From Rhizomicrobium electricum (lineage in GTDB: Bacteria; Pseudomonadota; Alphaproteobacteria; Micropepsales; Micropepsaceae): a stretch of DNA of 64,000 bases. The position numbers and the translations under genes are program-made. The stretch is from contig NZ_JAASQS010000001.1 of assembly GCF_011762045.1 (NCBI RefSeq), forward strand, positions 335,868-399,867. The letters run 5' to 3'. Position 1 is the first letter of the stretch. Each line of letters opens with the position of its first letter. Positions 42,624 through 57,453 of the stretch are shown one piece after another. Under the pieces are notes generated by a model. The model did not search any database, had not been told where the DNA came from, and saw only the letters and a program-made list of their open reading frames with translations.

Positions 42624-44035
42624 AACCGTCTTATCCCGTTAGGAAACGCTACAAAGCACACAGGTATGACAACTGCGCTGAGCAGGATGAGCTTCAGCAA
42701 GATCAGAAGCCCAATCCCCCAATCGAGCAGGTTCAAAAGCGCCGACAAGACAGCGAGGAAACAGACCGCCGCCCCCGACAAAATCAGCAGCTTGAAATAC
42801 GATAGACGGTTTAGCCTGTACGCCAGAATGAAGCTAGTCGCAGTCATCACCAGATAGGCACATGACGTCGCAATCGCTCCGCCTATGAGGTGGTAGCGCG
42901 GGACCAGCACGATCCCCAGGCCCGCCGATATCACCGCCCCCGCGATGGAGTTCACCGTAAGAACCTGCGGGCGACGGTGATACAAAAGCGCCAAGTTTGA
43001 TGCAAATCCCAGAGAATAGAAAAAGCTGCCGACAAGCAGAATTAAAAGCGCCGTATAACCGTTGAGATAATTCCTGCTGCCCACCACCAGAATGATTTCG
43101 CGCGCGAACATCAAGACCTGCGCCGAAACGACAAACAGCAGCAAGATGTATACATTGCTGGAACTGCGCAGGAGATCCTGAGCGTCTTTTTCCGGTGCAC
43201 CGTATACGATTGGCTGGATCGCCTTGCCGAGAGATGCTCCCAGCAGCGTGATCAGCGTGGCGATTTGCTGCGCCAGTCCGAAAACCGCGATCTGATCGAG
43301 CGGGACGTAGTGCTGCAGGGTCAGCAGGTTGAAGCGGTTGACGACGAAGTAGGCGATATAGCCCATCGCGAACGGCAGGCCGAAGCGGACGGATTCGATC
43401 ACGTAGGCGCGATGGATCGCCGGGCGGAGCTTGCCGCCGATGCGATAGAACAGTGCCGCAGACGCCGGCATGTAGCCGAGGATCAATGCCAAGAGCAGCC
43501 CGTTCAGTCCCAATTTCAGGACAACAAGATTCACGAAGGCCGCAATAGCGGTCACCGCCGAGGCCACGATCTGGATCGTGACGAACCGCTTCACCTGTTC
43601 GTCAAGGCGAAACCACAACGAGCCGATGCCGGCAAAAAAATTGGCCGCGGCAAGCGCGAGACAATACCAGATGTACGGCCGAGACGCCGTTTGCGGAGCC
43701 AGCCGGCGCCAAGCCGCATCGCCGAAAAACTCGAGCGCCACCGCGGCCGCCAGCACCACGACGACGAAGAACATGACGATGGAGTTGAGATACTCCCGCT
43801 GCCGCCCCTTGGCCTTGTAGTCGAAATAGATGCGCGCGACGGAGGAGAGCAAACCGAAGTACAGCACGTACTGCAGAATTTCGGCATTGACCTTGACGAT
43901 CAGGTAATCGGCGAAGGCGGCTTGCGACAGCGTACGTGTGTACAACGGCAACAACAGAAAGCCGCCGACGGCCAGAACGAGCATGTCGCCGATGCCGTAG
44001 AGTGCGCTTGCGCTGAGGAAGCGGCGGATGTTCAC
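42587..44035 (-). CDS. wzx: Wzx-type polysaccharide repeat-unit flippase
   Basis: 482 residues from a GTG at 44035. The open frame extends upstream to 44125, but only TTG starts without support are there. About 12-14 membrane spans of the MATE/PST type: SASALYGIGDMLVLAVGGFLLLPLYTR at the start, LPFAMGYIAYFVVNRFNLLTLQHYV in the middle. Flips undecaprenyl-linked repeat units to the periplasm. First gene after the terminator at 44169-44217, so it probably has its own promoter in the 130 bp before it. Confidence 0.85.
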   Translation of the reverse strand: MNIRRFLSASALYGIGDMLVLAVGGFLLLPLYTRTLSQAAFADYLIVKVNAEILQYVLYFGLLSSVARIYFDYKAKGRQREYLNSIVMFFVVVVLAAAVALEFFGDAAWRRLAPQTASRPYIWYCLALAAANFFAGIGSLWFRLDEQVKRFVTIQIVASAVTAIAAFVNLVVLKLGLNGLLLALILGYMPASAALFYRIGGKLRPAIHRAYVIESVRFGLPFAMGYIAYFVVNRFNLLTLQHYVPLDQIAVFGLAQQIATLITLLGASLGKAIQPIVYGAPEKDAQDLLRSSSNVYILLLFVVSAQVLMFAREIILVVGSRNYLNGYTALLILLVGSFFYSLGFASNLALLYHRRPQVLTVNSIAGAVISAGLGIVLVPRYHLIGGAIATSCAYLVMTATSFILAYRLNRLSYFKLLILSGAAVCFLAVLSALLNLLDWGIGLLILLKLILLSAVVIPVCFVAFPNGIRRLCSSLSGFLGTR

Positions 44036-44168
44036 AACGAATCCGCGTGTCCGTGAGAGCCGGCTGACCAGCTCAAATGATCCGTCATCTCGCAACCACC
44101 CTTGTTCCCCCCGAGGCGCCCGCAACCAGGGTTAGTAGTATCTCAGCCGGGGGCGGTAAAGTATTCAA

Positions 44169-44217
44169 AACCGCGCGTGCCCCGGCGGGCCAGTCGCGGG
44201 GACGGCGACGCGCGGTT
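44169..44217 (-). terminator. Rho-independent-type terminator of the nonulosonic acid block
   Basis: A perfect 10-bp stem AACCGCGCGT (44169-44178) with ACGCGCGGTT (44208-44217), extended by a GCCCC/GGGG inner pair, lies 6 bp after the stop at 44224. On the minus strand it is followed by a T-rich tail (TTTTGAATACTTT). It separates the sugar block from wzx and downstream genes. Confidence 0.65.
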
Positions 44218-44223
44218 GGCGGC

Positions 44224-44892
44224 TCAGCGCGATGCCAACGCCCGCTCGGCGCGGAGCAGGTCCGCTTCCGTGTCGATGTCGATCGACCGCTCGGCCGGCA
44301 TCACGAAACCGACGGTGTCCTTGTCGACGAAGGCGCGGGTTTTCCGCAGCCAATCGCTCCGGAACGCGTAAAGCGCCCCATTCAGCAGGTATACGGCCGG
44401 AAGATCCTGGCGGCGGGCATAGGCGTCCCCGCCCTCTATCAGGCGGCTGAGCTTCCCATCTCCCTCCAGACGATACATCCAATACGGGCTTTCTTCGGCC
44501 GCGCAGACGCTGACGCAGCTCGACTTGCCTCGCATCGCCGTGAGACAGCCGTCAATGTCCTCCGCCGTCCGGAGCGGCGATGTCGGCTGCAGCAGGATTG
44601 CCAGTTCATATCCGGGGACCGCGTCCAAGGCGTGCAGCACCACGTCAAGCGAGCCCGCCACATCGGTCGCCAGCTCGGCCGGACGGCGCAGCGGCACCGA
44701 AGGATCGAACGCAGCCGCCACCGAGAGGATTTCGTCGTCGTCGGACGATACGACGATGCGGTCGACACAGGCTGAGGCTTTTGCCGCTTCCAGCGTCCAG
44801 CGGATCAGCGGCTTGCCAGCGACGGGGCGCACGTTCTTGCGCGGCACGCCCTTGCTGCCGCCGCGGGCCGGAACGATAGCCAGGATTTTCAT
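44224..44892 (-). CDS. CMP-nonulosonic acid cytidylyltransferase (LegF/NeuA-like)
   Basis: 222 residues from the ATG at 44892; an ATG at 44904 is also possible. Activates a nonulosonic acid with CTP to its CMP form. Diagnostic CMP-NeuAc synthetase N-terminus: AIVPARGGSKGVPRKNVRPVAGKPLI (P-loop-like residues 5-20), then DRIVVSSDDDEIL, LQPTSPLRTAEDID and DIDTEADLLRAE. Last gene before the terminator. Context points to legionaminic acid rather than sialic acid, but the sequence alone cannot decide. Confidence 0.88.
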   Translation of the reverse strand: MKILAIVPARGGSKGVPRKNVRPVAGKPLIRWTLEAAKASACVDRIVVSSDDDEILSVAAAFDPSVPLRRPAELATDVAGSLDVVLHALDAVPGYELAILLQPTSPLRTAEDIDGCLTAMRGKSSCVSVCAAEESPYWMYRLEGDGKLSRLIEGGDAYARRQDLPAVYLLNGALYAFRSDWLRKTRAFVDKDTVGFVMPAERSIDIDTEADLLRAERALASR

Positions 44893-44929
44893 ACCGTCGA
44901 GCATCCGCCCCACCTGTCGAAGGAAATCG

Positions 44930-46000
44930 TTACTCGGCCGGCGGCGCGCCGTTGCGCGCCTTTTCGAGATCGTTGGGCCGGCCGACATCGAGCCAAGCTT
45001 CGTGCATCGGGAAGGCAATCGTCTTCTCCGAACGCTCGCGCAAGCGCATGAACAGTTCGGGCATATCGCACGGCTCATTGCGGCCGATGAGATCGAGCGC
45101 CTGCGGATCGATCACATACATGCCGGCATTGATGTGACAGCGCGACACCGGCTTCTCCTCGAAACCGACGATGTCGACGCCCTCGGTGCGCACCACGCCG
45201 AACGGGTTCTGGGTTTCGTAGATGCGCACCGCCATGGTGGCGACCGCCTGATGATAGAGGTGAAATTCCAGAAGTTCGGAATAGCGGAAGTCGGTCACGA
45301 GATCGCCGTTGGTGACGATGAACGGCACCGAAGGCCGGCTCTCGAACAACCCAAGCGCACCGGCGGTTCCCAGCGGCGAATTTTCCCTTAAGTATTCGAT
45401 CTTGACGTTCCAGCGGCTGCCGTCGCCGAAATACTCCTCGATCATGTGCCCGAGGTAGTGGATGGCGATCACGAAATGCTCGAAACCTTCGAGCTTGGCC
45501 CGTTCGATCACCCGCTCCAGCATGGGCTTTCCCGCCACCGGCAGCATCGGCTTGGGGCAATTCTCGGTGAAAGGCCTCAGCCGCGTCCCCTTCCCGCCCG
45601 CCATCACGACGATCGGATTGGAGCGCGTCTCCGGCACGAGAAATTCGTCCCAGACATGCAGGCCGACCACGCGCCGCGCAGCGTCGACGACCGGCAACTG
45701 GCGAATTTTGTTGGCCACCATCAACTGAAGGACCATGTCGTGGCCCCACTGCGGCGGCGCCACGAGAGGATCGCGATGCATGACCTCGTGTACGGGATTC
45801 GACAGCAAAACACCCCGTATCAGGCCTCTGCGAATGTCGCCGTCCGTCAGCGTGCCCACCAGCACGCCGCCCGCATCGACGATCATCACAATCTGCAGGC
45901 CGCTTCTGTCCAGACAGGCAATCGCTTCCTGAACACTCGCCGTCTCGGGCAACAGGCAGCCTCGCCACTGTTCGGCCGGCAGCGAACCGTCAATTTTCAT
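44930..46000 (-). CDS. ptmE: CBS-domain sugar-1-phosphate nucleotidyltransferase (PtmE-like)
   Basis: 356 residues; ATG at 46000, or a TTG two codons before. Residues ~15-120 form a pair of CBS domains (VGTLTDGDIRRGLI, IRQLPVVDAARRVVGL). Residues ~128-356 form a nucleotidyltransferase (VVMAGGKGTRLRPFTENCPKPMLPVAGKPML, VTNGDLVTDF, INAGMYVIDP, WLDVGRPNDLEKA). This CBS-plus-transferase layout is that of PtmE, which makes GDP-GlcN/GDP-GlcNAc for legionaminic acid in Campylobacter. 24 bp after the neuC-like gene. Guanylyl specificity is inferred from layout and context. Confidence 0.8.
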   Translation of the reverse strand: MKIDGSLPAEQWRGCLLPETASVQEAIACLDRSGLQIVMIVDAGGVLVGTLTDGDIRRGLIRGVLLSNPVHEVMHRDPLVAPPQWGHDMVLQLMVANKIRQLPVVDAARRVVGLHVWDEFLVPETRSNPIVVMAGGKGTRLRPFTENCPKPMLPVAGKPMLERVIERAKLEGFEHFVIAIHYLGHMIEEYFGDGSRWNVKIEYLRENSPLGTAGALGLFESRPSVPFIVTNGDLVTDFRYSELLEFHLYHQAVATMAVRIYETQNPFGVVRTEGVDIVGFEEKPVSRCHINAGMYVIDPQALDLIGRNEPCDMPELFMRLRERSEKTIAFPMHEAWLDVGRPNDLEKARNGAPPAE

Positions 46001-46024
46001 CGTCAACGTGTCCCCCCAATCCCA

Positions 46025-47185
46025 CTAAACCTGGTCCCGGAAGGACTTATGCAGCAACTTCTCGAGGGGAACGTTTGCCAAGACCTCGACGATCTTCTTG
46101 CTCGCGCCGCCATCGCCGTAGGGATTCGTCACTCCGGCCTTCAGCATGCGCTGAAAATCGGCGGAATAAAGCTTCTGGATTGCCGCCGTAATGGCGCCAC
46201 GCTCCGGCTCGCAGTCGATAACGCTCTGCGCTCTCAACCGTCCGTCCTGGCGGGCCCCGATATTGACCGTTCCGATATTGAACGTCGGCGCTTCGCACAG
46301 GCCGCTGGACGAATTGCCCACCACGCCATCGACGTGTTTCAGGCAGGACAGATAGCGCTGCTGGCCGAGCGAAACAAAGCTCTTCGCGCGGGGATGCGTT
46401 GCCACGAACTGCTTGATGTCGCCGGCCAACTCGCGTCCGCCGGTGTCGGCGTTAGACGCCGTGAAGATGAGTGTCACATCTTTAAGCGTCGACAGAGCGG
46501 CCAACACCTCCTGCTGCTCCGCCGTCGAGTCCACATCGCCGCGCGTCACCGGATGGTAGGTCACCATCAGGCTCTTCGCCCCCAACTCGAGGCCCAGTTC
46601 GGCTTCGAGCGCCTTCCGGTCCAAGAGATCGGCGTGCGTGATCGCATCGACACCCAAACCGCCGACCAGATAGACCCGCTCGGGATCCTCTCCCATCTGA
46701 ATGACCCGTCGGCGATAGTCCTCCGCGGCCACGAAATGCAGATGGGACATCTTGGTCACGGCATGGCGGATGCAATCATCGAAGGCACCCTCGGTGACCT
46801 CCCCGCCATGCAGATGTGCAATCGGAATGCGCAGGATCAGGGCCGCGGTTGCCGCCGCGAGCAGTTCGTAACGGTCGCCGAGCAGAACGACGATATCGGG
46901 CTTCAGCCGGCTCAAGGCATCGGCGATCCCCATCACGCCAAGCCCGACCGATCGGGCTATGCCGGTGGACGTGTCGGCGCTCAGCAGCATCTCCACTTTC
47001 TCGTCAATGGAGAAACCGTCGCCCTCGATCTCATGGAACGTCAGACCGAACTCCGGCGACAGGTGCATGCCGGTAACAAGGACCTGCAGAACTAAGCCCG
47101 CATACGACCGGATACCTTCCATAACCCAGCGCAGGCCGCCGTATTCCGCCCGAGTGCCGGTAACGATGCAGATTTTGCGGATCAT
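46025..47185 (-). CDS. Hydrolysing NDP-sugar 2-epimerase (LegG/NeuC-like)
   Basis: 386 residues from the ATG at 47185 (ATGA overlap with the methyltransferase stop). Removes the nucleotide and inverts C2 to give a ManNAc-type sugar. IVTGTRAEYGGL start, LLGDRYELLAAA, IAHLHGGEVTEGAFDDCIRHA, VTYHPVTRGD, and VVGNSSSGLCEAP are the conserved blocks of the NeuC group. In the GDP route it would act on GDP-2,4-diacetamido-trideoxyglucose. Substrate assignment follows the LegB/LegC/PtmE neighbours. Confidence 0.88.
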   Translation of the reverse strand: MIRKICIVTGTRAEYGGLRWVMEGIRSYAGLVLQVLVTGMHLSPEFGLTFHEIEGDGFSIDEKVEMLLSADTSTGIARSVGLGVMGIADALSRLKPDIVVLLGDRYELLAAATAALILRIPIAHLHGGEVTEGAFDDCIRHAVTKMSHLHFVAAEDYRRRVIQMGEDPERVYLVGGLGVDAITHADLLDRKALEAELGLELGAKSLMVTYHPVTRGDVDSTAEQQEVLAALSTLKDVTLIFTASNADTGGRELAGDIKQFVATHPRAKSFVSLGQQRYLSCLKHVDGVVGNSSSGLCEAPTFNIGTVNIGARQDGRLRAQSVIDCEPERGAITAAIQKLYSADFQRMLKAGVTNPYGDGGASKKIVEVLANVPLEKLLHKSFRDQV

Positions 47186-47856
47186 GGCGTGGGCTCTTTG
47201 ACGGCTTCGATCAACCACTCACGAACTTCATCCTGGCGGCCGTTCATTGTCCAGGTCGCGAGCTCCAGGCTCGTCTGGCGCAATCCGCCGAGCAGCACTT
47301 CGACGTCCTCAAGTGCCGTGAAGCGGATCAGCCCCTCGTCGGCCGTCGGTCCCTTGGTCACATACCAGGCATTGTAGCCGGCGGGCTTACCTGTTCCGTC
47401 GCCGACACATCCCTTGGCAAACGCCCGAGAGAAGAACTTCCCCCCCGGCTTGAGAACGCGCCACGCTTCCCGATAAGCCGCCTTCGCATCCTCGAAGCCG
47501 GCGCAGCAGATCGCCTCGTGATCGATGACGCCATCGAACACGCCGTCTGCATAGGGCAAATGAACGAAATCACCCGTTTGCAGTTCTCCCGTCCAGCCGG
47601 CGCATTCGGCATCAAGGCGTTCGCGGGCAATGTGTATAGCTGTCTCAGAACCGTCGATGCCGAATACGGAAAAGCCTTCCCGCGCCATATACCACAGATT
47701 GGCACCCGGCCCGCAACCGAGTTCGCACAGGCGGATTTGAGACCGGTCCGGCGCTGAATAAAAATTGCGCGCGACAAAGCGAATAAGCGGCTCGCTGGGG
47801 TATTTGCCCCAAGGCCTGCTACGGAACATCTTCTCCCAAACGGGATCCCACGTCAT
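47182..47856 (-). CDS. SAM-dependent methyltransferase in the nonulosonic acid block
   Basis: 224 residues; ATG at 47856 after GGGGGAAG. Class I methyltransferase: CELGCGPGANLWYMA (motif I, near residue 44), GIDGSETAI, GDFVHLPYADGVFDGV (motif II region) and WRVLKPGGKFFSRAF. It overlaps the neuC-like gene by 4 bp, so it belongs to the same unit. A methyltransferase (PtmH) also sits beside the legionaminic acid genes of Campylobacter, so it may methylate the nonulosonic acid or its N-acyl group. The target is not known. Confidence 0.75.
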   Translation of the reverse strand: MTWDPVWEKMFRSRPWGKYPSEPLIRFVARNFYSAPDRSQIRLCELGCGPGANLWYMAREGFSVFGIDGSETAIHIARERLDAECAGWTGELQTGDFVHLPYADGVFDGVIDHEAICCAGFEDAKAAYREAWRVLKPGGKFFSRAFAKGCVGDGTGKPAGYNAWYVTKGPTADEGLIRFTALEDVEVLLGGLRQTSLELATWTMNGRQDEVREWLIEAVKEPTP

Positions 47857-47886
47857 GACACTTCCCCCAAGCGACCGATTTGCAGA

Positions 47887-48888
47887 TCAGCAACGATAAA
47901 ACAGGACACGTTGCGGGAACCGGTCGTATTGATCCCTAAACGCAGACTTAAGGTCATCGTACGCCGCCGCGAGATGAATATGTCGGCCTATATGATAAGC
48001 GCGGCGTTGGGCGGAAAAACTCGCCTTAAAAAGAAGTAATTTGTCGTCCGGATCGCGGCTGGTGCCGCCACCCAGGTAAAGGCTCGAACATCCTGCGGCC
48101 TGGCCGAAGGTTGCCGCAGTGTGCAGAATGGCGGTCGGTGCTCCTTGCGTCCGCCCCTGCGGGGTTGCGCCCGCCAAGTGATATTCCATCAATTTTGGGC
48201 CAACCAGAAACAACGACGAAGCCACGATCTGCCCATTCGGATCGCGGCACACGGCGCATTTCATCTGCGCCATTGCCAGCAATTGCTCGAAATACTTTTG
48301 CGGGAAGAAATAGGACTCGTCCGCCCCGATTTCTTCCATGGCCGCATGATAAACGACGGGAAAAACCCGCAGCGCCTCGTCCGCATCCAGCCATGTGACG
48401 GAATAGACGTTCCGTTCGGCCTTGCGCGCGCGAGCACGCGCGCCGCGCGTGTAGGATGCAAGAAGGTCCGGCTGGCGCAGATCGATATAGACCGTATCAC
48501 GGTCGAATTCCGTCGTTCCGCCGTAATCGCGCCAGTTCTCCAACATCGGATGAAAGCGGATGAACTCGCAGACCACACGGGCCTCGGCACAATAACGGCA
48601 CCAGGACGCCCACGCCGCTTCCAAAAAACCCGCACTGTGGTCGTTGGTCAGCGGCCCGCCGTAGCCGTAGGGCGACTGGACATCGTAATAGTCCGTTCCG
48701 GGGATGGCGCCCAAATGAAAGGCTTGAAGCAAGCGCGACCCGCCCCGCTCGAACAGCCAAAACGTCGGAATCAAATCAGCCGATCTCGCGGCGTCCGCCA
48801 AGACGTAGGACGGCGACAGAGTCGGGGCAGTGCTCTCGGGGGCTAACGAGGAAAAAACGGCTTCGGCTTGGGACAGATCAATCAACAT
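47887..48888 (-). CDS. FemAB/GNAT-like acyl- or aminoacyltransferase
   Basis: 333 residues. The ATG at 48888 lies inside the neuB-like gene end (11-bp overlap). Two GNAT-like halves of the FemAB kind: YYDVQSPYGYGGPL (near residue 68) and YTRGARARARKAERN followed by AGCSSLYLGGGTSRDPDDKLLLFKASF. FemAB proteins use aminoacyl-tRNA or acyl donors. Within this block it could add an amino acid or acyl group to an amino sugar. No close functional relative is recalled, so the donor and acceptor are unknown. Confidence 0.65.
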   Translation of the reverse strand: MLIDLSQAEAVFSSLAPESTAPTLSPSYVLADAARSADLIPTFWLFERGGSRLLQAFHLGAIPGTDYYDVQSPYGYGGPLTNDHSAGFLEAAWASWCRYCAEARVVCEFIRFHPMLENWRDYGGTTEFDRDTVYIDLRQPDLLASYTRGARARARKAERNVYSVTWLDADEALRVFPVVYHAAMEEIGADESYFFPQKYFEQLLAMAQMKCAVCRDPNGQIVASSLFLVGPKLMEYHLAGATPQGRTQGAPTAILHTAATFGQAAGCSSLYLGGGTSRDPDDKLLLFKASFSAQRRAYHIGRHIHLAAAYDDLKSAFRDQYDRFPQRVLFYRC

Positions 48889-49990
48889 GCTCGCACACGA
48901 GATCGTCCGCTTCGTAAGCTCGAGAAGCGCGCTGTCCGAGCAGTTTCCAATAGGTCATCGGCGACATGCCGTTTCCCGGCCGCTTGGCAATAAGGTTCTC
49001 CTCGGTAAAAAGTTCTCCGGCAGCGATCGGCACCCGTGCCACAAGGCTTCGCCGGGCGATAGGGATGTTCTTCATCTCCGCCGGTGCCGGCACCTTGAGG
49101 CCGTTGCCGAGCGCCGCCTTGGCGGTCCGCACGCCCTCGACCAGGGCCCGCAGTTCGGAGGGTTCAAGCGATGCCCGGTGATCGGGGCCCGGCAAATTGC
49201 GATCCAGGGTAAAGTGCTTTTCGATGATGACCGCACCACGCGCCGCTGCCGCGATCGCGACCGCAATTCCTGGGGTATGATCGGACAATCCGACCGGCAG
49301 GCCGAACGCCGTCGCCATCGTATCCATGGCGCGCAGGTTGGCTTCGTCCGCCGGCGACGGGTATTCGGTCGTGCAATGCAACAGCGTCACCTTCGAACGA
49401 AGCTGTTCCTGCCCTTCGACCGAGCAATAGGCCCGGCGGAACGCTTCGGCCGACGGCTTTTCTTTGCCGCCGAGATATCCGAACGCCAGCACTCCCAGCG
49501 CGGCTTCGACTTCTCCGAGAGTGCTCATGCCGGTGGAGAAAATGACCGGTTTCCCGGTGCGAGCCGCCGCCAAGAGCAAGGCGCCATGCGTGACTTCGCC
49601 CGAAGCGATCTTGAGCTCCGTGGCGCCGAGTTCGTTGCTGACGAAATCCAGACTGGGCAGATCGAATGCCGTCGTCATGAACGCGATGCCGCGCGCGATG
49701 CAATGATCGCGGACTTTATGGAACTGCTCGGCATTGAGTTCGAGCTTCCGGACGAGTTCCACCTGGGTGGCGACGTCGCCGGTATTGCGGCGCTGATATT
49801 CCGCAGTCGGAGCATGGCGGCTGATGCCCAGTTCCGTCTTGAAGGTCTGGAACTTGACCAAATCCGCACCGGCTTCGCGCGCCACATCGATCAGCTGCAG
49901 CGCAAGATCCAGAGAACCGTTATGATTGACGCCTGCCTCGGCGATGATCCGGATGTTGTCGACATCGCGAATCTTATCAGCTTCGGGCAT
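48878..49990 (-). CDS. Nonulosonic acid synthase (LegI/NeuB-like)
   Basis: 370 residues from the ATG at 49990 (GGGAG 7 bp upstream). Condenses phosphoenolpyruvate with a ManNAc-type sugar. TIM barrel with IIAEAGVNHNGS, DLVKFQTF, LKIASGEVTHG, IFSTGMSTLGEVE, LLHCTTEYPSP, GLSDHTPG and IEKHFTLDR. The C-terminal SAF (antifreeze-like) domain is at residues ~310-370 (RRSLVARVPIAAGELFTEENL). The full two-domain layout is kept. Family blocks alone do not separate sialic, legionaminic and pseudaminic substrates. Confidence 0.92.
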   Translation of the reverse strand: MPEADKIRDVDNIRIIAEAGVNHNGSLDLALQLIDVAREAGADLVKFQTFKTELGISRHAPTAEYQRRNTGDVATQVELVRKLELNAEQFHKVRDHCIARGIAFMTTAFDLPSLDFVSNELGATELKIASGEVTHGALLLAAARTGKPVIFSTGMSTLGEVEAALGVLAFGYLGGKEKPSAEAFRRAYCSVEGQEQLRSKVTLLHCTTEYPSPADEANLRAMDTMATAFGLPVGLSDHTPGIAVAIAAAARGAVIIEKHFTLDRNLPGPDHRASLEPSELRALVEGVRTAKAALGNGLKVPAPAEMKNIPIARRSLVARVPIAAGELFTEENLIAKRPGNGMSPMTYWKLLGQRASRAYEADDLVCEHVD

Positions 49991-50175
49991 CCATCGTCTC
50001 CCACCATGGCCGCACAAGCGGACTTCAAAAAGGAATAGATAATCTCAATCGTCTTACCGGAAGGACCGCCGCGTCACAAGCCCAGATGGAACCTCACCAA
50101 AAGCGCAATACCGGAACCATCGGTAACCGGCGCCACTTCCATCCCACAACCAGACCACACGACCGCGAACGTCAA

Positions 50176-50637
50176 TCAGTCGTGTCGCGATCCCGGCGGT
50201 GTCGACGGCTCGAATATCCGCTCCATTTTGATGAACTCGCCATCCTCGCCCGCGTCTTCGAAACCGAGCGACCGGTACAAATTGGCGGCCAGGAGATTAC
50301 GTTTGTGCACGCGCAGGCCACACTGCTTGAAATCCCGCGACTGAATCGCGGTCAGCGCCGCACTCACCAACGACTTCGCGATGCCCTTCTTCCGACTCTC
50401 GGGCCGGACGACGACCATCGTGATGAACGCACCGCGCGCGGGGTCGTTACAATAGAACGCAACGAATCCCTCAAGGACCTCTCTCGTCCAGAGGATGATG
50501 TCGGCCTCGGTGCAAATTTTTTCGACATATTGGTGGATTTGATCGGGAGGGACGATCTCGAAGTCCACCAAGGACTGGACTTCGAGCAGCAACGACTCCA
50601 TCCGCTCTTTGATCATTAGATAGGGAAAGTGGGTCAT
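50176..50637 (-). CDS. GNAT N-acetyltransferase (LegH candidate)
   Basis: 153 residues. GNAT core: GAFITMVVVRPESRKKGIAKSLV (acetyl-CoA binding RxxGI/A at residues ~82-87) and NLLAANLYRSLGFE. Located between the LegC- and NeuB-like genes with gaps of about 180 bp on each side. In the legionaminic acid route a GNAT enzyme (LegH) acetylates the 4-amino group made by LegC. It is the only small GNAT in the block, which supports that role but does not prove it. Confidence 0.7.
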   Translation of the reverse strand: MTHFPYLMIKERMESLLLEVQSLVDFEIVPPDQIHQYVEKICTEADIILWTREVLEGFVAFYCNDPARGAFITMVVVRPESRKKGIAKSLVSAALTAIQSRDFKQCGLRVHKRNLLAANLYRSLGFEDAGEDGEFIKMERIFEPSTPPGSRHD

Positions 50638-50815
50638 GTCGCCTCTGGACGTGATCTCAAGCTTTCTCGCTCGGCGCCGAGAACCAAAACGCAGTCAATT
50701 CATTCACGCCGCTTCCATGCCACCACAGCGGAACCGACGCTCAACAGACCCCCAATTTCCCGCAATCGCCCCTAGACCGCAACTCCATTTAGTACGGCGT
50801 GACGGTCAAATATCG

Positions 50816-51976
50816 TCACGCCGGCCGCACACTGCTCGGAATGTTAACAACCCGCGATTCCAGCCATTCCGCATTCTCGAGCGGGCCGCGCTGCGCCTCA
50901 ACAAAAGCTGGAAGCCGATGCATCAGCGTCCAGACCGGCCGCGTCATCACCCCGGTGCCGTTGCTCTCTTCGAGAAAGGCGTCCCGCTCCTCGCGGCCAC
51001 CCGTGAGGATGGCATTAAGCCAGAAATTTGAAGTCGTTCCAGGACGCTCATCGACGAAACTGATGCCATGCTCCCGGCAGAACCGCCGGTAACGGCCGGC
51101 GGTATCGCGCTTGTCCGCCAGCATCTCGGACAACTGCTCCAGCTGGGCACAGGCCAAGGCCGCGTTGAGATTGGGCAGGCGGTAGTTGAAGCCGATCTGG
51201 TCGTGGAAGAACTCCCAGGCGTGGGGCACCTTGGCCGTCGTGGTCAGATGCTTGCCCAACCGGCCGAGTTCCTCATCGTCGGTCACGATGCAGCCACCGC
51301 CGCCGCAAGTGACGGTCTTGTTGCCGTTGAAACTGAAGGCGCCAAGCAGGCCGAACGTGCCGGTGTGCCGGTTGCCGACCAGCGAGCCGATCGACTCCGC
51401 AGCATCTTCCACCAGCACCGTATTCCATTCACGGCAAATCTCGACCAGAGCCTCGATGCGGCCCGGCAGGCCGAAACTATGCATGACGACGACGGCAGCG
51501 ATGCGCCGGCCAGTCGAGCGGTTGTAGCACCCGCCGTCACGCCGCTCGCCGTTCGCTTCGAGGAACGCGCGCAAGGCTTCGGGAGAAAGACTCATCGTGT
51601 CGCGATCGACGTCGACGAAAACCGGATGCGCCCGCTGATAGGCGATGGCATTACAGGTCGCCACGAAGCTCAACGGCTGGGTGATGACCTCGTCGCCGTC
51701 GCGCACGCCCGCCAGGATCAGCGACATGTGCAGCGCGAGCGTGCCGTTGGCGGTGGCAATGGCGTAACGCGCGCCGGTCAACTCGCGCATATCCGCCTCG
51801 AAGCGATTGACGTACTCGCCGACAGAGGACACGTAGGTGGAATCGATCGCATCAACCAGATAGCGCTTCTCGTTGCCGCGGAACCGCGGTTCGTGCAACG
51901 GGATGAAACCGCTTTGCCCGTAAAGCTCGCGGATAAACGTCAGCAGCGCGCGATAGTTTTCCGGCAGGTCAGACAT
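50816..51976 (-). CDS. PLP-dependent sugar aminotransferase (LegC-like, DegT/DnrJ/EryC1 family)
   Basis: 386 residues from the ATG at 51976, overlapping legB by 8 bp. Adds an amino group at C4 of a 4-keto-6-deoxy sugar nucleotide, glutamate as donor. PLP-lysine in SFNGNKTVTCGGGG; VEDAAESIGS with the ring-stacking region; GFNYRLPNLNAALACAQLEQL near the C-terminal third; HEPRFRGNEKRYL at the start. The combination with a LegB next door fits the LegC group. Confidence 0.88.
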   Translation of the reverse strand: MSDLPENYRALLTFIRELYGQSGFIPLHEPRFRGNEKRYLVDAIDSTYVSSVGEYVNRFEADMRELTGARYAIATANGTLALHMSLILAGVRDGDEVITQPLSFVATCNAIAYQRAHPVFVDVDRDTMSLSPEALRAFLEANGERRDGGCYNRSTGRRIAAVVVMHSFGLPGRIEALVEICREWNTVLVEDAAESIGSLVGNRHTGTFGLLGAFSFNGNKTVTCGGGGCIVTDDEELGRLGKHLTTTAKVPHAWEFFHDQIGFNYRLPNLNAALACAQLEQLSEMLADKRDTAGRYRRFCREHGISFVDERPGTTSNFWLNAILTGGREERDAFLEESNGTGVMTRPVWTLMHRLPAFVEAQRGPLENAEWLESRVVNIPSSVRPA

Positions 51977-52955
51977 TGTAGATATTCGCCTTGTACTTGG
52001 CGAGGTTGGCCGGATCGCCAAACCAGGCGACGGTGCGGCGCAAGCCTTCTTCCAGCGTAAATTGCGGCCGGAAACCCGTCAATTCGCGCAGCAGCGTGTT
52101 GTCGCAGCAAAGCCGGAACACCTCCGACTGCGGCGGGCGGATGCGTTCGGCCTCGACCACCGCAGCGGCGTCGGACCGCATCATGCCGCGGATCATCGCC
52201 AGCGTATCGCCGATCGACACTTCGGTGCCGGATCCGACATTGACGGTCTTGCCGACCGCCGCATCGCACTCGGCCAGCGCAATGAAACCGCCGCAGGTAT
52301 CGGCAACGTAGTTGAAATCGCGCGTCGGGCTCAGATCGCCGAGCTTGACCTCTTTGCCGGCGGCAATCTGGGTGATGATCGTCGGAATGACGGCGCGGGC
52401 GCTTTGCCGCGGACCATAGGTGTTGAACGGACGCACCAGCGTCACCGGCAAACCGAAGGCGTTATGAAAGCTCATCGCCATCGCATCGGCGCCGATCTTG
52501 CTGGCGCTGTAGGGCGACTGCGGCTGCAACGGGTGCTTTTCGTCGATCGGGACATAACGCGCGGTGCCGTAAACTTCGGATGTCGAGGTCACCAGCACAC
52601 GGCTCACGCCACACTCGCGCGCCGCCTGGCAGATGTTGAGCGTACCGCGAACGTTGGTGTCGACGTAGGAATCCGGCGCGACGTAGGAATAGGGAATGGC
52701 GATCAGCGCCGCCAGATGGAACACCATCTCCCGGCCCCGCACGATCTCCTTGCAGAAATGAGGATCACGAACATCGCCACAGACGACTTTGACCCGGTCT
52801 TTGCAGCCGACGTCCTCCAGCCAACCCCAATTGTTGAAGGAGTTGTACAGCGAGAGCGCGGTGACGTCGTAACCGCGCGCAACAAGCATCTCGACGAGAT
52901 GAGAACCGATAAAACCGTCGGCACCGGTGACCAATACCTTCTTCTGCCCGCTCAT
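51969..52955 (-). CDS. NDP-HexNAc 4,6-dehydratase (LegB-like)
   Basis: 328 residues from the ATG at 52955. Extended short-chain dehydrogenase: VTGADGFIGSHLVE (residues 7-20), LYNSFNNWGWLED (a run typical of LegB), STSEVYGTA, YSASKIGADAMA with YxxxK, RPFNTYGPRQS. First committed step: GDP-GlcNAc to the 4-keto-6-deoxy form. Coupled to legC by overlap. Confidence 0.88.
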   Translation of the reverse strand: MSGQKKVLVTGADGFIGSHLVEMLVARGYDVTALSLYNSFNNWGWLEDVGCKDRVKVVCGDVRDPHFCKEIVRGREMVFHLAALIAIPYSYVAPDSYVDTNVRGTLNICQAARECGVSRVLVTSTSEVYGTARYVPIDEKHPLQPQSPYSASKIGADAMAMSFHNAFGLPVTLVRPFNTYGPRQSARAVIPTIITQIAAGKEVKLGDLSPTRDFNYVADTCGGFIALAECDAAVGKTVNVGSGTEVSIGDTLAMIRGMMRSDAAAVVEAERIRPPQSEVFRLCCDNTLLRELTGFRPQFTLEEGLRRTVAWFGDPANLAKYKANIYNV

Positions 52956-53074
52956 CGCCGATTCTCTGCCGAAGTGTTCGCCTACCAACCCTCAAGACAT
53001 TTAGCAGCCCCTAGCCATGTTCGCCACAACTAACGGCGGCGGGGCGCGTCGCGCTCATATGCCGGGTCAGACCG

Positions 53075-53947
53075 TCATTTAATCAGGCGAATGGTTTCCT
53101 CTATGTGGGGTCGCGATGACGCCCCGAACACAACCGACTGAATGTTGAGGCTATTGACGAAGTCGTAGGCCTCTTTCGGCGGCACCGCACCGGACGCCAG
53201 CGTCGACATCGCCATCATAGGAAATGCCTCGGGGTCGTTTTCCGCCAGCGCCTGCTTGTACGCCTCCACGCCCGGAGACATCAGGTAGCCGATCTTGTTG
53301 ATCGAGGAACAAATCACCACCCCGGAGATGCCCCACTCCATCAGCTTGTTCCGGAGGTAAGGCATATTTTGGGTAATCAGCCCCGGCATCGCTCCGTACT
53401 TGCGGCGCACGTGCTCACAATATTCGCGGAAGATGTCGGCCGTATCCAGTCCGAGCAGCAGATCCGTGACAATGTTCTGCAAAAAGACGACCTTGATGTT
53501 GAGGCCGTCGAACATCTGCATTTCGGCATCGACCAGCATCTTCATCATGCGGACGATGTCCATCGACATCAGCGCCAGACCGCCTTGCGCCAGCTTGCCG
53601 ATGCCCGACAACCGGCCCTTTTGAAACAAGACGTCGTTCAGAGTTCCGACGATGCCCTTCTCGGCAACCCAATTGGCGTACTTGTGGGGATACGGGATCG
53701 AAGGATACCAGCTGAGGCCGGCGTATCGCGAAGGATTGCTGCGGAAGCGGTCGCAGATCTCGGCCGCCCGGCTGTTGCTGTTGAGCATTACGGCGCGGAG
53801 GCCGGCGTCGATGGCGGCATCGTAGACCGAGAAAATTGCGTCGAGGTCGTGGAAGCGCTCCGCCAACTGCTGCGCCTTGTCCTGCGACATATGGTTGATG
53901 CCGAAGAACTGATTATCGCCGAAAACGATTTGGTCGATCGTGCTCAC
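53075..53947 (-). CDS. TIM-barrel-like protein of unknown function in the nonulosonic acid block
   Basis: 290 residues from a GTG at 53947, with AGGAG about 9 bp upstream inside the preceding gene. Opening IVFGDNQFFGINHMS, then ISGVVICSSINKIGYL, and a closing MAMSTLASGAVPPKEA...IQSVVFGASSRPHIEETI that resembles the last strand and helix of aldo/keto-reductase barrels. I see no clear Asp-Tyr-Lys-His reductase tetrad. It follows the Gfo/Idh gene with no real gap, so the two likely act together on the sugar or its side chain. I do not recognise a characterised family. Confidence 0.7.
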   Translation of the reverse strand: MSTIDQIVFGDNQFFGINHMSQDKAQQLAERFHDLDAIFSVYDAAIDAGLRAVMLNSNSRAAEICDRFRSNPSRYAGLSWYPSIPYPHKYANWVAEKGIVGTLNDVLFQKGRLSGIGKLAQGGLALMSMDIVRMMKMLVDAEMQMFDGLNIKVVFLQNIVTDLLLGLDTADIFREYCEHVRRKYGAMPGLITQNMPYLRNKLMEWGISGVVICSSINKIGYLMSPGVEAYKQALAENDPEAFPMMAMSTLASGAVPPKEAYDFVNSLNIQSVVFGASSRPHIEETIRLIK

Positions 53948-53948
53948 C

Positions 53949-54998
53949 TCAGACCATCTCCTTCTCGATCACAGCCGCGTCGCGGAAAATCTCGTCGATC
54001 ACGGCCAGCGTTGCCGTCGCATCGGCGAAACTGCACATGGTCCGGCGATCCTCCGCGGCTTTGATCTTCTCGATGAAATGGTAGAGCTGCGCCGTAAACT
54101 CGACGCCTCTGACGTAAAACGGAACGGAGTTGAACACATCCGTTATATAGAGCGTGTTCCAGCCCCTCTTGAAACCGCGCTCGGGATCGTCGTGATCGAG
54201 AAAAAGCTTCAGCCCGTGCTGATCGGCCAGGATCTTGCCGCGGCGCCCGAACACTTCGAGTTTGTTGGTCGGCTTGCGGAAGCTCGCATCGCTCCAGTTC
54301 ACATACAGCGCGCCGGTGCAGCCCGACTTATAGGCAAACGTGCTGGAGACAACATCCTCCACGTTCTTCGAAAACACATGCGTCAGGCGGCTGCCAGCCA
54401 CTTTGTCGGGCGGACCGAACAGGAAATTGATGAGATCGATGGCGTGCGAAGCCATCTCGTAGGTCGCTCCGCCGCCATTTGCGTGCGACGAGCGCCAGCC
54501 CTCTCCCGCCTCTTCGCGAACGACGGTGCTACTGTACATTTCGCTGCGAAACCGCAGGATTTCGCCGAGCAGTCCGGCCTGCAGATAACGCTTCACCGCA
54601 ACGAAAACGTCGTTGAAGCGGTTCACATAGCCGACCTGATTGACCAATCGGCTGCCGTCGAACAGTGCGGCCAGCTCTTCGCCCTCACGAACCGAGAGCA
54701 GGAAGGGCTTTTCGACAAAGGCGTGCAATCCCTTGCGGTGCGCAGCCGTCAGGATTCCATGGTTGAGCGCGGGCGGGGTACACAGCAGGATCGCGTCCAG
54801 CGCCTGCTTGTCGAACATTGTCTCGGCATCCTTGTAGGTCGCCGCCTTCACGGACTTATCGAGGAACAGACGCATCACCGACGAGGGTTCGGCAACAGCC
54901 GTAACCTCAACATCCGGGTGCGAGTTAATGATCGCATAGTGCGTAATCCCCATCCGGCCCGCACCAACGATACCAACCCTGATTTTTCCTCCGGACAT
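53949..54998 (-). CDS. Gfo/Idh/MocA-family oxidoreductase
   Basis: 349 residues from the ATG at 54998 (GGGGGAG upstream). NAD(P)-binding VGIVGAGRMGITHY (near residue 7), the family EKPF motif in HAFVEKPFLL, and a C-terminal alpha/beta domain with GGGATYEMASHAIDLINFLFG (conserved His). Such enzymes oxidise or reduce sugars or sugar nucleotides at a ring or side-chain carbon. First gene of the nonulosonic acid block; forms a pair with the TIM-barrel-like protein. Substrate not known. Confidence 0.8.
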   Translation of the reverse strand: MSGGKIRVGIVGAGRMGITHYAIINSHPDVEVTAVAEPSSVMRLFLDKSVKAATYKDAETMFDKQALDAILLCTPPALNHGILTAAHRKGLHAFVEKPFLLSVREGEELAALFDGSRLVNQVGYVNRFNDVFVAVKRYLQAGLLGEILRFRSEMYSSTVVREEAGEGWRSSHANGGGATYEMASHAIDLINFLFGPPDKVAGSRLTHVFSKNVEDVVSSTFAYKSGCTGALYVNWSDASFRKPTNKLEVFGRRGKILADQHGLKLFLDHDDPERGFKRGWNTLYITDVFNSVPFYVRGVEFTAQLYHFIEKIKAAEDRRTMCSFADATATLAVIDEIFRDAAVIEKEMV

Positions 54999-55391
54999 TG
55001 CTCCCCCTTTTTTGAACACCCGCGACAGGAGAGAACCTGACGCTTCCCGCCGGCGTTTGTCGCATCTGCTTCAGCCGGCTTCGCGTTCCGTCGCAAATAC
55101 CGGAAACCCCTGACGATGTTGGTGTGGTAACACCCCTGCAGGCCCCTGGTTTAGCGCCAACCGGTGGTAAGCAGCAAGTCTCCAGGACACACTATTCGTT
55201 GAGTTTGCGTTTGCCGAACCGAGATACGACGGTCCCACGCCAATGATCGGCTTGCCGCCCGCGGCAACGCAGACGCACGCTCATCCCGCCGACGAAAAGG
55301 TGCTGCAAATTGTCACGAACGCGACTGGCCGCATCGAACTCCTCCAGTACCGAAGCAACGCACCATGAATCGGCCCGATCGAATGTCGATT
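54999..55391. other. Intergenic region before the nonulosonic acid block
   Basis: 393 bp. It probably carries the promoter of the block (minus strand), but no good consensus was found. A 67-codon TTG-start frame on the minus strand (55192-55395) overlaps the FkbM stop by 4 bp and has mixed codon use and no strong ribosome site. I leave it uncalled, though a small coupled protein is possible. Confidence 0.35.
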
Positions 55392-56322: not shown

Positions 56323-57453
56323 TTACTTCATCAAACCCTTGGATTTCATCTCCGCGAGCGAGCCTTCGTAATCGCTCGTCACTGCGCCGATGGTCCGGAC
56401 CCAGGCGCAGAAACGGTCAAGGCCTTCATCGAAGCTGACCCGCGGCTTGAAGCCCAAGATCCTTTCGATGCGCTCCAGAGAAGCAAAATTGTGGCGGATA
56501 TCACCGATCCGGAAGTTGCCGGTGACCGTAATCGGAGAATTGCCGTTCAGCTTGCGGTTCAAGGCATTGGCAACGGTCATCACATCCGTGGGAACGCCGG
56601 TTCCGACGTTGAACACATAGCCGCTTGCCCGATCGTCCATGATCGCAGCCGCCGTGATCCGCGCGACGTCGTCGATGAACACGAAATCGCGGCTTTCGGT
56701 GCCATCCTCGAAGACGTTGATGGGCTTGCCGCTCATGATCAGGTTGGAAAAGATTGAAAGGATGCCGGTATAAGGGTTGGAGAGCGACTGCCCCGGCCCA
56801 TAGACATTCTGGTATCTGAGCGCGACGGGAGCAACCTTGATAGCCGGGCAGACCGTCATGACAAGCTGTTCTTGAACCTGCTTGGTAATGCCGTATACCG
56901 AGGACGGATGGAGTTTCGACTCTTCGTCGGTTGCCGTGAGCGCCAACCGCGAACTGCCGGGGTATTTCACCTCGAAGTCGCCCTTGCTCATGTCCTCGGC
57001 GGAACGGTGTTCGGGGTAGACCGCGCCAAGTTCCTTCGAAACGTATTTGCCTTCGCCGTAGATCGAGCGCGAAGAAGCGACCACGAGACGCTTCACGCTG
57101 TGCGGTTCATTGGCGAGAATGTCGAGCAGCAGCGATGTCCCGCCCACATTGACCTTCATATAATGGTCGATGCGGTACATGGACTGTCCCGTACCGGTTT
57201 CGGCGGCGAGATGGACGACCGCATCCTGGCCCGCCAGCGCGCGACGCAGATCGGCCCTGTCCGTCACATCACCACGGATAAACGCGACCTTGCCGGCGAT
57301 GGACCGGTAGAGCACGGACTTCTCCGGCTCCTCGCCATGGATCTGGGGCGACAGATTATCGAGAACGGTAACCTTGCATCCCTCGGCAAGCAGCTTGGTC
57401 ACGAGGTTCGTGCCGATGAACCCCGCCCCTCCGGTGACCAGAATATTTTTCAT
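56323..57453 (-). CDS. NAD-dependent epimerase/dehydratase (extended SDR)
   Basis: 376 residues; ATG at 57453 after GAGGAG. ILVTGGAGFIGTNLV (residues 4-18), VVHLAAETGTGQSMY, VASSRSIYGEG, YGITKQVQEQ with catalytic Tyr and Lys, LRYQNVYGPGQSL, DGTESRDFVFIDDVA. It contains an insert before the YxxxK region (HRSAEDMSKGDFEVKYPG). Related to sugar-nucleotide epimerases of the GalE/WcaG kind, but the exact substrate cannot be read from sequence. It would supply or modify one sugar of the polymer. Confidence 0.8.
   Translation of the reverse strand: MKNILVTGGAGFIGTNLVTKLLAEGCKVTVLDNLSPQIHGEEPEKSVLYRSIAGKVAFIRGDVTDRADLRRALAGQDAVVHLAAETGTGQSMYRIDHYMKVNVGGTSLLLDILANEPHSVKRLVVASSRSIYGEGKYVSKELGAVYPEHRSAEDMSKGDFEVKYPGSSRLALTATDEESKLHPSSVYGITKQVQEQLVMTVCPAIKVAPVALRYQNVYGPGQSLSNPYTGILSIFSNLIMSGKPINVFEDGTESRDFVFIDDVARITAAAIMDDRASGYVFNVGTGVPTDVMTVANALNRKLNGNSPITVTGNFRIGDIRHNFASLERIERILGFKPRVSFDEGLDRFCAWVRTIGAVTSDYEGSLAEMKSKGLMK

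Follow-up and report, generated by a model that had tools for sequence, protein, structure and literature searches.

A polysaccharide locus of Rhizomicrobium electricum probably encodes a CMP-legionaminic-type pathway in which a FemX-like transferase replaces LegH, the product being an aminoacylated, possibly methylated legionaminic acid. The window, i.e. the whole stretch of DNA analysed, is 64 000 nucleotides long, and all positions refer to it. Since the customary acetyl-adding enzyme, a NeuD-type LegH, is missing and a FemX relative stands among the genes, the sugar probably bears an amino acid and not a plain acetyl group. The genes concerned are the following.

44224..44892, minus strand: LegF/NeuA-like CMP-nonulosonate cytidylyltransferase (222 aa, ATG at 44892 read from the sequence; PF02348, E 6e-21)
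44930..46006, minus strand: PtmE-like protein with CBS and nucleotidyltransferase domains (PF00483 + PF00571)
46025..47185, minus strand: LegG/NeuC hydrolysing 2-epimerase (ATG at 47185 read from the sequence; TIGR03568, 469 bits, cut-off 235.9)
47182..47856, minus strand: SAM-dependent methyltransferase (PF08241), FemAB-linked in some nonulosonate loci
47887..48888, minus strand: FemX/FemAB-like aminoacyltransferase, the proposed LegH substitute (profile A3 against PDB FemX, E 3e-20)
48878..49990, minus strand: LegI/NeuB nonulosonate synthase (ORF opens at 50017, ATG at 49990 read from the sequence; TIGR03569, 446 bits, cut-off 399.65)
50176..50637, minus strand: RimI-like GNAT N-acetyltransferase in the place of LegH (153 aa; PF00583, E 1.4e-10; TIGR01575, 43.3 bits, below the cut-off of 86.4)
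50816..51976, minus strand: LegC aminotransferase (ORF opens at 52021, likely ATG at 51976; TIGR04181, 516.7 bits, cut-off 420)
51969..52955, minus strand: LegB NAD-dependent 4,6-dehydratase (ORF opens at 52988, likely ATG at 52955; TIGR04180, 491 bits, cut-off 475)
53075..53947, minus strand: protein of an uncatalogued family with a modelled AKR (TIM-barrel) fold, Gfo partner, outside the nonulosonate pathway
53949..55019, minus strand: Gfo/Idh/MocA oxidoreductase, partner of the AKR-fold gene (PF01408, PF22725)
56323..57453, minus strand: SDR epimerase-like gene belonging to the Gfo/AKR-fold module, which neighbours the Leg block

The LegB, LegC, NeuB/LegI, NeuC/LegG, PtmE-like and CMP-transferase-like genes were confirmed to form a single contiguous minus-strand block, within a larger polysaccharide locus that also holds gmd, fcl, SDR and FkbM genes. 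Extra genes do overlap or adjoin pathway genes, as the earlier note had it: the LegI and FemAB genes overlap by 11 nt, and the methyltransferase stop and the NeuC ATG share ATGA (read from the sequence). A terminator had been placed at 44169–44217. As a terminator it is weak: its hairpin has a folding energy of −30 kcal/mol, which 9 of 200 shuffles match (z −1.31). Scanning for terminator patterns returned 13 sites versus 12.2 in shuffles, and 44169–44217 was unlisted because the loop limit of 8 excludes it.

Profile scores support a nonulosonate pathway of legionaminic type, neither sialic nor pseudaminic, as had been proposed. The LegB, LegC, NeuC and NeuB proteins scored over the cut-offs of their models; NeuB reached 242 with the PseI model (cut-off 340.25), and none of the PseB, PseC and PseI NCBIfam models attained its cut-off with the block proteins. 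LegB and a C. jejuni LegB record share 57.5% identity over 96%. A sialic or pseudaminic acid is highly improbable: TIGR03569 is named N-acetylneuraminate synthase and the top NCBIfam model of the LegF-like protein was PseF (151.5 bits, cut-off 205.7), but LegB and LegC exceed their own cut-offs and the Pse models do not. As the PseF score is below cut-off, the name LegF depends on context; PF02348 passes, and the protein is 39.6% identical to its counterpart in an Escherichia coli O161-labelled locus. The PtmE-like protein is 41.8% and 40.6% identical to proteins of the E. coli O161- and O108-labelled loci, respectively, and has a relative at 60% within the Leg locus of another genome (G119, locus L122). 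From the LegB similarity and the PtmE-like gene, GDP-linked substrates are plausible.

The CMP-legionaminic acid pathway of Campylobacter, reportedly set out by Schoenhofen in 2009, consists of LegB, LegC, LegH, LegG, LegI and LegF plus PtmE. The window has counterparts of LegB, LegC, LegG, LegI, LegF and PtmE. Unlike Campylobacter, for which the steps partly follow passages of PMC4481668, it has no NeuD-type LegH and, by the gene list of the block, no PtmF- or PtmA-type gene, and it has an extra GNAT, FemAB and methyltransferase. The block had been said to offer one candidate for each step. This stands for LegB, LegC, LegG, LegI, the PtmE-like protein and the cytidylyltransferase; the acyltransferase step is without a LegH homologue. 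The gene at 50176–50637, previously called LegH-like, was rejected as a NeuD/PglD-type LegH: its product is a RimI-like GNAT, which is not homologous to NeuD-type LegH. Three LegH queries gave zero matches in positions 38001–63000, and one LegH query against the whole genome gave weak partial matches at five places (best E 3e-6, 30%).

For comparison, 39 LegB regions were used (36 of the 37 other matching genomes of the class, plus three plasmids). LegB, LegC and LegI occurred together in 13, of which 12 carried LegH (the source locus of the query counted among them); FemAB, the methyltransferase and the window-type GNAT were found in none of the 13. The informative feature of the window is this gap at the acyltransferase step.

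The FemAB-like protein alone passed PF13480 (26.3, cut-off 22), fell below PF02388 FemAB (18.6, cut-off 24) and scored 23.5 bits with the NCBIfam FemX model (cut-off 500); alone, it matched no PDB chain at E 0.1. The five-row profile A3 matched FemX (4ii9), a UDP-MurNAc-pentapeptide-lysine N6-alanyltransferase, at E 3e-20 over about 200 residues. Profile homology thus places the protein with FemX/FemABX (PDB 4ii9, 1ne9), F287–K288 aligning with the conserved Phe-Lys pair at FemX 304–305, which has a catalytic role. This motif was found in nine of ten FemABs, the pattern missing L182. The acceptor of FemX/FemABX is a peptidoglycan peptide, whereas an amino sugar is proposed as that of the window protein.

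Recurrence beside NeuB/NeuC shows that the link of FemAB and the methyltransferase with nonulosonate genes is genuine. Among 11 other genomes with a FemAB relative, this gene adjoined NeuB/NeuC in five; in the other six, one of which (G621) has it on a 4.3-kb contig, NeuB was not beside FemAB. Profile A3 was partly built from nonulosonate-linked members, so the second FemAB sample is biased towards such loci. A methyltransferase accompanies three of the five FemABs that adjoin NeuB/NeuC; relatives of the window methyltransferase occur in the nonulosonate loci L195 (51%) and L180 (40%), over 218/224 residues, and a short one in L194 (35%). The gene order in L195 (genome G362) is LegB-MT-LegC-FemAB-LegI-LegG, and neither LegH nor a window-type GNAT was found there. 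In a tree of 14 FemABs, the window protein fell in a six-row clade (96/95) whose members, the O161-labelled one included, are all nonulosonate-linked; the FemAB of G603 is nonulosonate-linked and lies outside it. In genome G589, a NeuD-type LegH occurs in the same nonulosonate locus as a FemAB that is fused to a GNAT domain, so the replacement of LegH by FemAB is not universal. That the product is plain Leg5Ac7Ac (or 8-epi-Leg), with the extra genes modifying other polysaccharide sugars, is quite unlikely. The core enzymes are typical and the large locus holds other sugar genes (gmd, fcl, SDR, FkbM), but LegI and LegG are in physical linkage with FemAB and the methyltransferase, two genes that also recur with NeuB/NeuC, and NeuD-type LegH is missing.

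At the level of RefSeq labels, the genes of E. coli loci labelled O161 correspond to the structure of the O161 sugar. FemAB was present in 7 of 5426 E. coli genomes, and all seven have a wzx labelled as of the O161 family. In the two loci viewed (L199, L203), FemAB lies between LegC and NeuB and LegH was not found; the O61- and O108-labelled loci instead carry LegH proteins that are mutually 44% identical. Like the window, the O161-labelled locus has LegC, FemAB, NeuB, NeuC, PtmE and LegF without LegH, although the FemABs are only about 30% identical. It differs from the window in carrying a PLP-type gene as well as a PF02719-type dehydratase and in giving no methyltransferase or GNAT match. 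The O161 sugar is given in a review table as Legp5NAc7NR with R = D-alanyl, i.e. Leg5Ac7(D-alanyl) (PMC10609480). Nothing in positions 38001–63000 matched the PLP-type protein present in the FemAB loci of O161, G362, G621 and Priestia, which makes a D-configuration doubtful for the window sugar.

An N-acetylalanyl form is also on record: Leg5Ac7AcAla is described for Vibrio vulnificus CMCP6 in a passage of PMC7371886, with an alanyl substituent on legionaminic acid as proposed here. The earlier expectation of a modified sugar is thus supported, and its description as possibly undescribed is softened by these two compounds. Two reports concern the type B flagellin locus of Clostridium difficile: it includes a FemAB-like gene, CDR20291_0244 (PMC5207246), and its flagellin glycan, which contains Fuc3N, bears a taurine/alanine/glycine cap (PMC5207245). 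As in the window, a FemAB-like protein there stands amid amino-sugar genes, with a peptidylamido cap; in contrast to the nonulosonate of the window, the sugar is Fuc3N, and the role of the FemAB-like gene is putative. The passages on alanylated legionaminic acids in this literature name no enzyme for the alanylation; the window locus and its relatives make a FemX-like transferase the candidate.

The GNAT might instead be a non-homologous LegH acetylating the 4-amino group, FemAB and the methyltransferase then having other targets, such as N5, CMP-Leg or a different amino sugar of the polysaccharide. We regard this as unlikely, though deserving some weight. The GNAT lies between LegC and LegI, as LegH does in some Leg loci (e.g. 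L120), and G589 combines LegH with FemAB. The window NeuB is 56% identical to the O108-labelled NeuB versus 44% to the O161-labelled one, and in the NeuB tree the O161, G204 and G362 proteins cluster without it (85/81, not starred; the O161 and G362 pair is starred), so perhaps this NeuB is not adapted to an alanylated substrate. Against a GNAT acting as LegH, FemAB stands without a NeuD-type LegH or this GNAT in L195, in both O161-labelled loci viewed and, bar a weak LegH match (26%), in L194; moreover, FemAB overlaps LegI in the window and adjoins it in L178, L180, L194 and L195.

With FemAB in the place of LegH, we infer the following reactions for R. electricum, together with the identity of the amino acid and the site of methylation. 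PtmE would provide GDP-GlcN(Ac), from which LegB and LegC would form a GDP-2-acetamido-4-amino-2,4,6-trideoxy sugar. FemAB would then transfer an aminoacyl group, most likely alanine from aminoacyl-tRNA, to the 4-amino group of the LegC product, which ends up as N7 in the nonulosonate. The aminoacyl group may then be capped by the methyltransferase and perhaps also by the GNAT. LegG and LegI would yield the nine-carbon acid and LegF the CMP sugar. More tentatively, it is possible that FemAB and the methyltransferase make a nonulosonic acid whose N7 bears an N-methylated aminoacyl group (e.g. N-methylalanyl), and that FemX-derived, tRNA-fed acylation has replaced the CoA-dependent LegH in scattered legionaminic loci. 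Acylation of this kind would connect the diversity of surface sugars with the pool of aminoacyl-tRNA. The gene content of the window locus and of related loci could serve as a marker for predicting alanylated legionaminic sugars.

Four extra genes had been credited with tailoring the sugar. This is likely for FemAB and the methyltransferase; the Gfo/Idh and TIM-barrel genes adjoin the Leg block and are a separate conserved module. The TIM-barrel protein matched nothing in Pfam or NCBIfam at E 0.001. Its predicted model (pLDDT 85.2, pTM 0.83) has an aldo-keto-reductase fold: the top Foldseek match was 4exa (E 4.7e-7), and superposition on 4exb gave Z 18.2 and an rmsd of 2.9 over 222 aligned residues. 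There was no PF00248 match, and the profile alignment (hhalign probability 10%) was too weak for placing the catalytic tetrad. Gfo, with homologues at 36–64%, pairs with this gene. It was rejected as PtmF, being 24% identical to the O108 protein in the PtmF place (E 8e-11) and giving no match at 1e-3 to that of L155.

Each of the 85 other loci with the AKR-fold protein has Gfo upstream on the same strand, 83 of them within 150 nt, and nonulosonate-type matches were found in the fetched flanks of only two. This argues against all four genes tailoring one nonulosonic acid, as do the lack of a LegI match at E 1e-40 in six of the nine closest proteobacterial Gfo/AKR-fold genomes and of an AKR-fold match among the 39 LegB regions. 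Such joint tailoring is very unlikely, despite the single contiguous same-strand block and a LegI within the same locus in the other three of the nine. Three related polysaccharide loci with both Leg and Gfo/AKR-fold modules have a LegH match (29–46%) and neither FemAB nor the methyltransferase. The likely tailoring genes can now be separated from the neighbouring module, which may be devoted to a different sugar within this polysaccharide. By database record titles the module occurs in several phyla, commonly amid glycosyltransferase and polysaccharide genes, and SDR epimerase-like homologues (62–68%) adjoin the pair in all nine closest proteobacterial loci.

The minus-strand block was read, on its gene content, as a Leg-type nonulosonate locus in which a putative FemX-like aminoacylating step probably replaces LegH and which carries a recurrent methyltransferase. 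An earlier note had judged a modified product likely, and the analysis agrees with that judgement. The outer genes of the block and the gene that follows it are, in transcription order:

55392-56120, minus strand: FkbM methyltransferase, first in this order
53949-55019, minus strand: Gfo/Idh oxidoreductase, second
53075-53947, minus strand: TIM-type protein, third
ending at 44224, minus strand: LegF-like gene, last before the flippase-like gene
42587-44125, minus strand: flippase-like gene (PF01943 just over cut-off), after the LegF-like gene

Between the TIM gene and the end of the block, the minus strand reads LegB, LegC, GNAT (50176-50637), LegI (NeuB-type), FemAB-like (47887-48888), methyltransferase (MT, 47182-47856), LegG (NeuC-type), PtmE-like and LegF-like. 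WaaS/CpsH-family glycosyltransferase, WecG, GDP-fucose-synthase-like and GDP-mannose dehydratase genes lie upstream. Four pathway proteins exceeded the cut-offs of their family models: LegB (491 bits against 475), LegC (516.7 against 420), NeuC (469 against 235.9) and NeuB (446 against 399.65). The synthase scored below the cut-off of the pseudaminic PseI model, and the cytidylyltransferase (LegF-like) passed the cut-off of no NCBIfam model. FemAB overlaps LegI by 11 nt and is separated from MT by 30 nt; as read from the sequence, one ATGA holds both the stop codon of MT and the ATG of LegG. A promoter scan found 3, compared with 3.4 in shuffles. A NeuB tree built for the separation of Leg from Neu was discarded because most of it lacked resolution, with stars on 2 of its 16 inner branches. 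Contig C12:127129-127812 of genome G000 holds another NeuB-like synthase, a short one of 288 aa, which adjoins a protein that looks by eye like an SpsF/PseG-like fusion.

The gene that had been called LegH-like was reassigned by family models to a small RimI-type GNAT. Window positions 38001-63000 gave no match to three NeuD-type LegH queries, from a plasmid Leg locus (L155) and from the O61- and O108-labelled loci of E. coli (E 1e-4, 40% coverage). The L155 LegH was also searched against the whole genome of the window and matched five places, all partial and weak (best E 3e-6). LegB was present in 38 of 385 genomes of the class at E 1e-90, that of the window included. The comparison set was made of 36 of the 37 other genomes and three plasmid loci (three of four fetched, from 22 matching plasmid records), giving 39 regions; the G603 match, on a short contig, and the Deinococcus plasmid locus L158 were left out. 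Regions were scored for LegB at 48% or more, LegC at 35% and LegI at 40%, the last two with more than 150 bits. All three genes occurred together in 13 of the 39, and 12 of these 13 had a NeuD-type LegH (one being the query itself). FemAB, MT, the window-type GNAT and the TIM gene were found in none of the 13, nor in the best matches listed for all 39 (E 1e-6, half coverage).

A profile of five FemABs (A3) matched FemX, the UDP-MurNAc-pentapeptide-lysine N6-alanyltransferase, at E 3e-20. Used alone, the window FemAB sequence found no counterpart among PDB chains at E 0.1 and stayed under the cut-offs of the FemX and FemAB models. Window residues F287-K288 were aligned on FemX positions 304-305, whose lysine we take to be catalytically important, and the Phe-Lys motif was present in nine of ten FemABs tested.

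FemAB and MT were assigned to nonulosonate loci. A search of 385 genomes of the class at E 1e-12 gave FemAB matches in six besides that of the window, and a search of 398 genomes of the phylum with profile A3 at E 1e-15 gave seven; two were common to both searches, leaving 11 distinct genomes. The phylum search is biased towards the kind of G399, G603, G589 and G621, because A3 contains these four. FemAB adjoined NeuB/NeuC in five of the 11 (G589, G603, G399, G204 and G362), three of which had MT relatives: G399 (40%), G362 (51%) and G204 (35%, short frame). The G362 order is LegB-MT-LegC-FemAB-LegI-LegG, followed at some distance by PtmE-like and LegF-like genes; this locus gave no match to LegH. 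In G204, LegB was unmatched, LegH matched at 26%, and one gene looks by eye like a PglF-like dehydratase. Formyltransferase-like and PIG-L-deacetylase-like genes (by eye) follow LegG in this FemAB-containing Leg-type locus (L194:5792-7329). NeuB was not found in the fetched stretch of the other six (G621, whose contig is 4.3 kb, G315, G280, G187, G045 and G231). Four of five plasmid records with a FemAB relative were viewed: in Cetobacterium, Priestia and Deinococcus proteolyticus it lay among amino-sugar aminotransferase genes, and in Azospirillum among radical-SAM genes. A plasmid scan for MT returned generic matches only, and none at 1e-15 when the G362 MT was the query. A literature search for FemAB together with legionaminic acid gave one paper, and among the papers listed by a search on N-methylalanyl groups (15 of 236) none contained N-methylalanine terms; published accounts may nevertheless exist. 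One FemAB relative (31%) was obtained in a viral scan, on an IMG/VR contig (L218).

In a maximum-likelihood tree of 14 FemABs, made without the weak matches G187, G045 and G231 and without D. actinosclerus, the window protein fell in a clade (96/95) whose six rows are all nonulosonate-linked; G603 fell outside it. The exact placement of the window FemAB is unsure because branches are long, its own being the longest. The nonulosonate locus of G589 retains a NeuD-type LegH alongside a FemAB that bears a GNAT domain at its C-terminus (L176:8746-10299). This fusion suggests that a GNAT is able to work together with FemAB, which the formation of an N-acetylalanyl product would require. A comparison of the fused domain with the window GNAT gave no match.

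The FemAB gene was found in 7 of 5426 E. coli genomes, each with a wzx labelled 'O161 family'; O161 is used here as this RefSeq label. The O161 repeat is given in a review table as ->8)-alpha-Legp5NAc7NR-(2->4)-beta-D-GlcpA-(1->3)-beta-D-GlcpNAc-, where R is D-alanyl (PMC10609480). The two O161-labelled loci viewed have FemAB between LegC and NeuB, together with PtmE-like and LegF-like genes; LegH, MT and GNAT were unmatched in them. In the clusters labelled O61 and O108, a NeuD-type LegH is present instead of FemAB; these serotypes presumably carry di-N-acetyl-8-epilegionaminic acid. If the labels and this assumption are valid, the LegH-for-FemAB exchange in E. coli therefore accompanies an acetyl-for-alanyl exchange at N7. 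The window FemAB shares about 30% identity with the O161-labelled FemAB, and the window NeuB is nearer to that of O108 (56%) than to that of O161 (44%). The O161 label calls for caution. Similarity between the O161 set and ten proteins of P. shigelloides is stated in PMC4875605, and Table 5 of PMC4481668 pairs Elg5 of E. coli with LegH and WeiH with PtmF. The RefSeq O61 locus is the better fit to those genes, and the O161 paper is linked to two accessions.

A PLP-type gene (21-33% identity) is common to the FemAB loci of G362, G621, Priestia and the O161 label and had no match in window positions 38001-63000. The G621 member matched DegT at 1e-7; those of the O161-labelled and G362 loci had no Pfam match. 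The divergent PLP/DegT-like proteins near FemAB are:

L199:15165-15956 (O161-labelled E. coli locus)
L195:12627-13649 (G362)
L181:2023-3102
L184:8767-9864

Such a protein recurs near FemAB, including in the O161-labelled locus with its D-alanine sugar. It is a possible source of the D-configuration.

The four extra genes had been proposed to tailor the nonulosonate. The evidence favours this for FemAB and MT, of which MT may methylate the amino acid, another position or another sugar, and goes against it for the Gfo/Idh and TIM genes, which are a separate conserved module, distinct from the nonulosonate pathway. A PtmF identity for the Gfo/Idh gene was rejected. TIM relatives were rare in the genome samples (the window's own genome and one other in 398; its own only in 385). 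A genome_contigs scan confirmed at least 458, of which the best 80 were retained; with five earlier loci (L004-L008) they gave 85 loci, a set of best matches and not a random sample. Among these 85 (best 80 of at least 458, plus five), a Gfo/Idh homologue lay upstream on the same strand in all, the two genes stood no more than 150 nt apart in 83 loci and 0.9-1 kb apart in the remaining L008 and L045, and nonulosonate-type matches with stated identities occurred in the fetched flanks of two (L011 and L012), many contigs stopping inside the 10-kb flank. A homologue (62-68%) of the window SDR gene at 56323-57453 adjoins the pair in the nine closest proteobacterial loci among the best 80 of at least 458 (L009-L015, L019 and L020); a LegI match at E 1e-40 was absent from six of these nine genomes and present in three, 10-17 kb from the pair by our own reckoning. 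The loci of these three genomes, L222, L223 and L224 (labelled Brevundimonas, Erythrobacter and Caulobacterales), carry the Gfo/AKR-fold/SDR module and a nonulosonate module with LegH instead of FemAB/MT. Their LegH matches were at 46, 30 and 29% across the three loci, without FemAB or MT; LegB was at 60-61% in L222 and L223, with only a 25% match in the third. L223 is the nearest to the window in overall gene content.

The TIM protein had no Pfam or NCBIfam match at E 0.001 and no PDB-sequence match at E 1; a profile search returned 6hg6 alone (E 0.82). Its structure model (pLDDT 85.2, pTM 0.83), in which residues 95-97 and 109-125 are weak, was made from 67 rows, the alignment (A2) having taken in 66 of the 80 retained loci. 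The predicted fold is that of an aldo-keto reductase (222 residues aligned, Z 18.2, rmsd 2.9). A profile alignment aimed at the catalytic tetrad of aldo-keto reductases was weak (hhalign probability 10%). The start FGDNQFFGxNHxS was kept in at least 90% of the 67 rows, partly by construction, since the scan looked for this motif. By record titles, the two-gene module of Gfo/Idh and AKR-fold protein spans several phyla.
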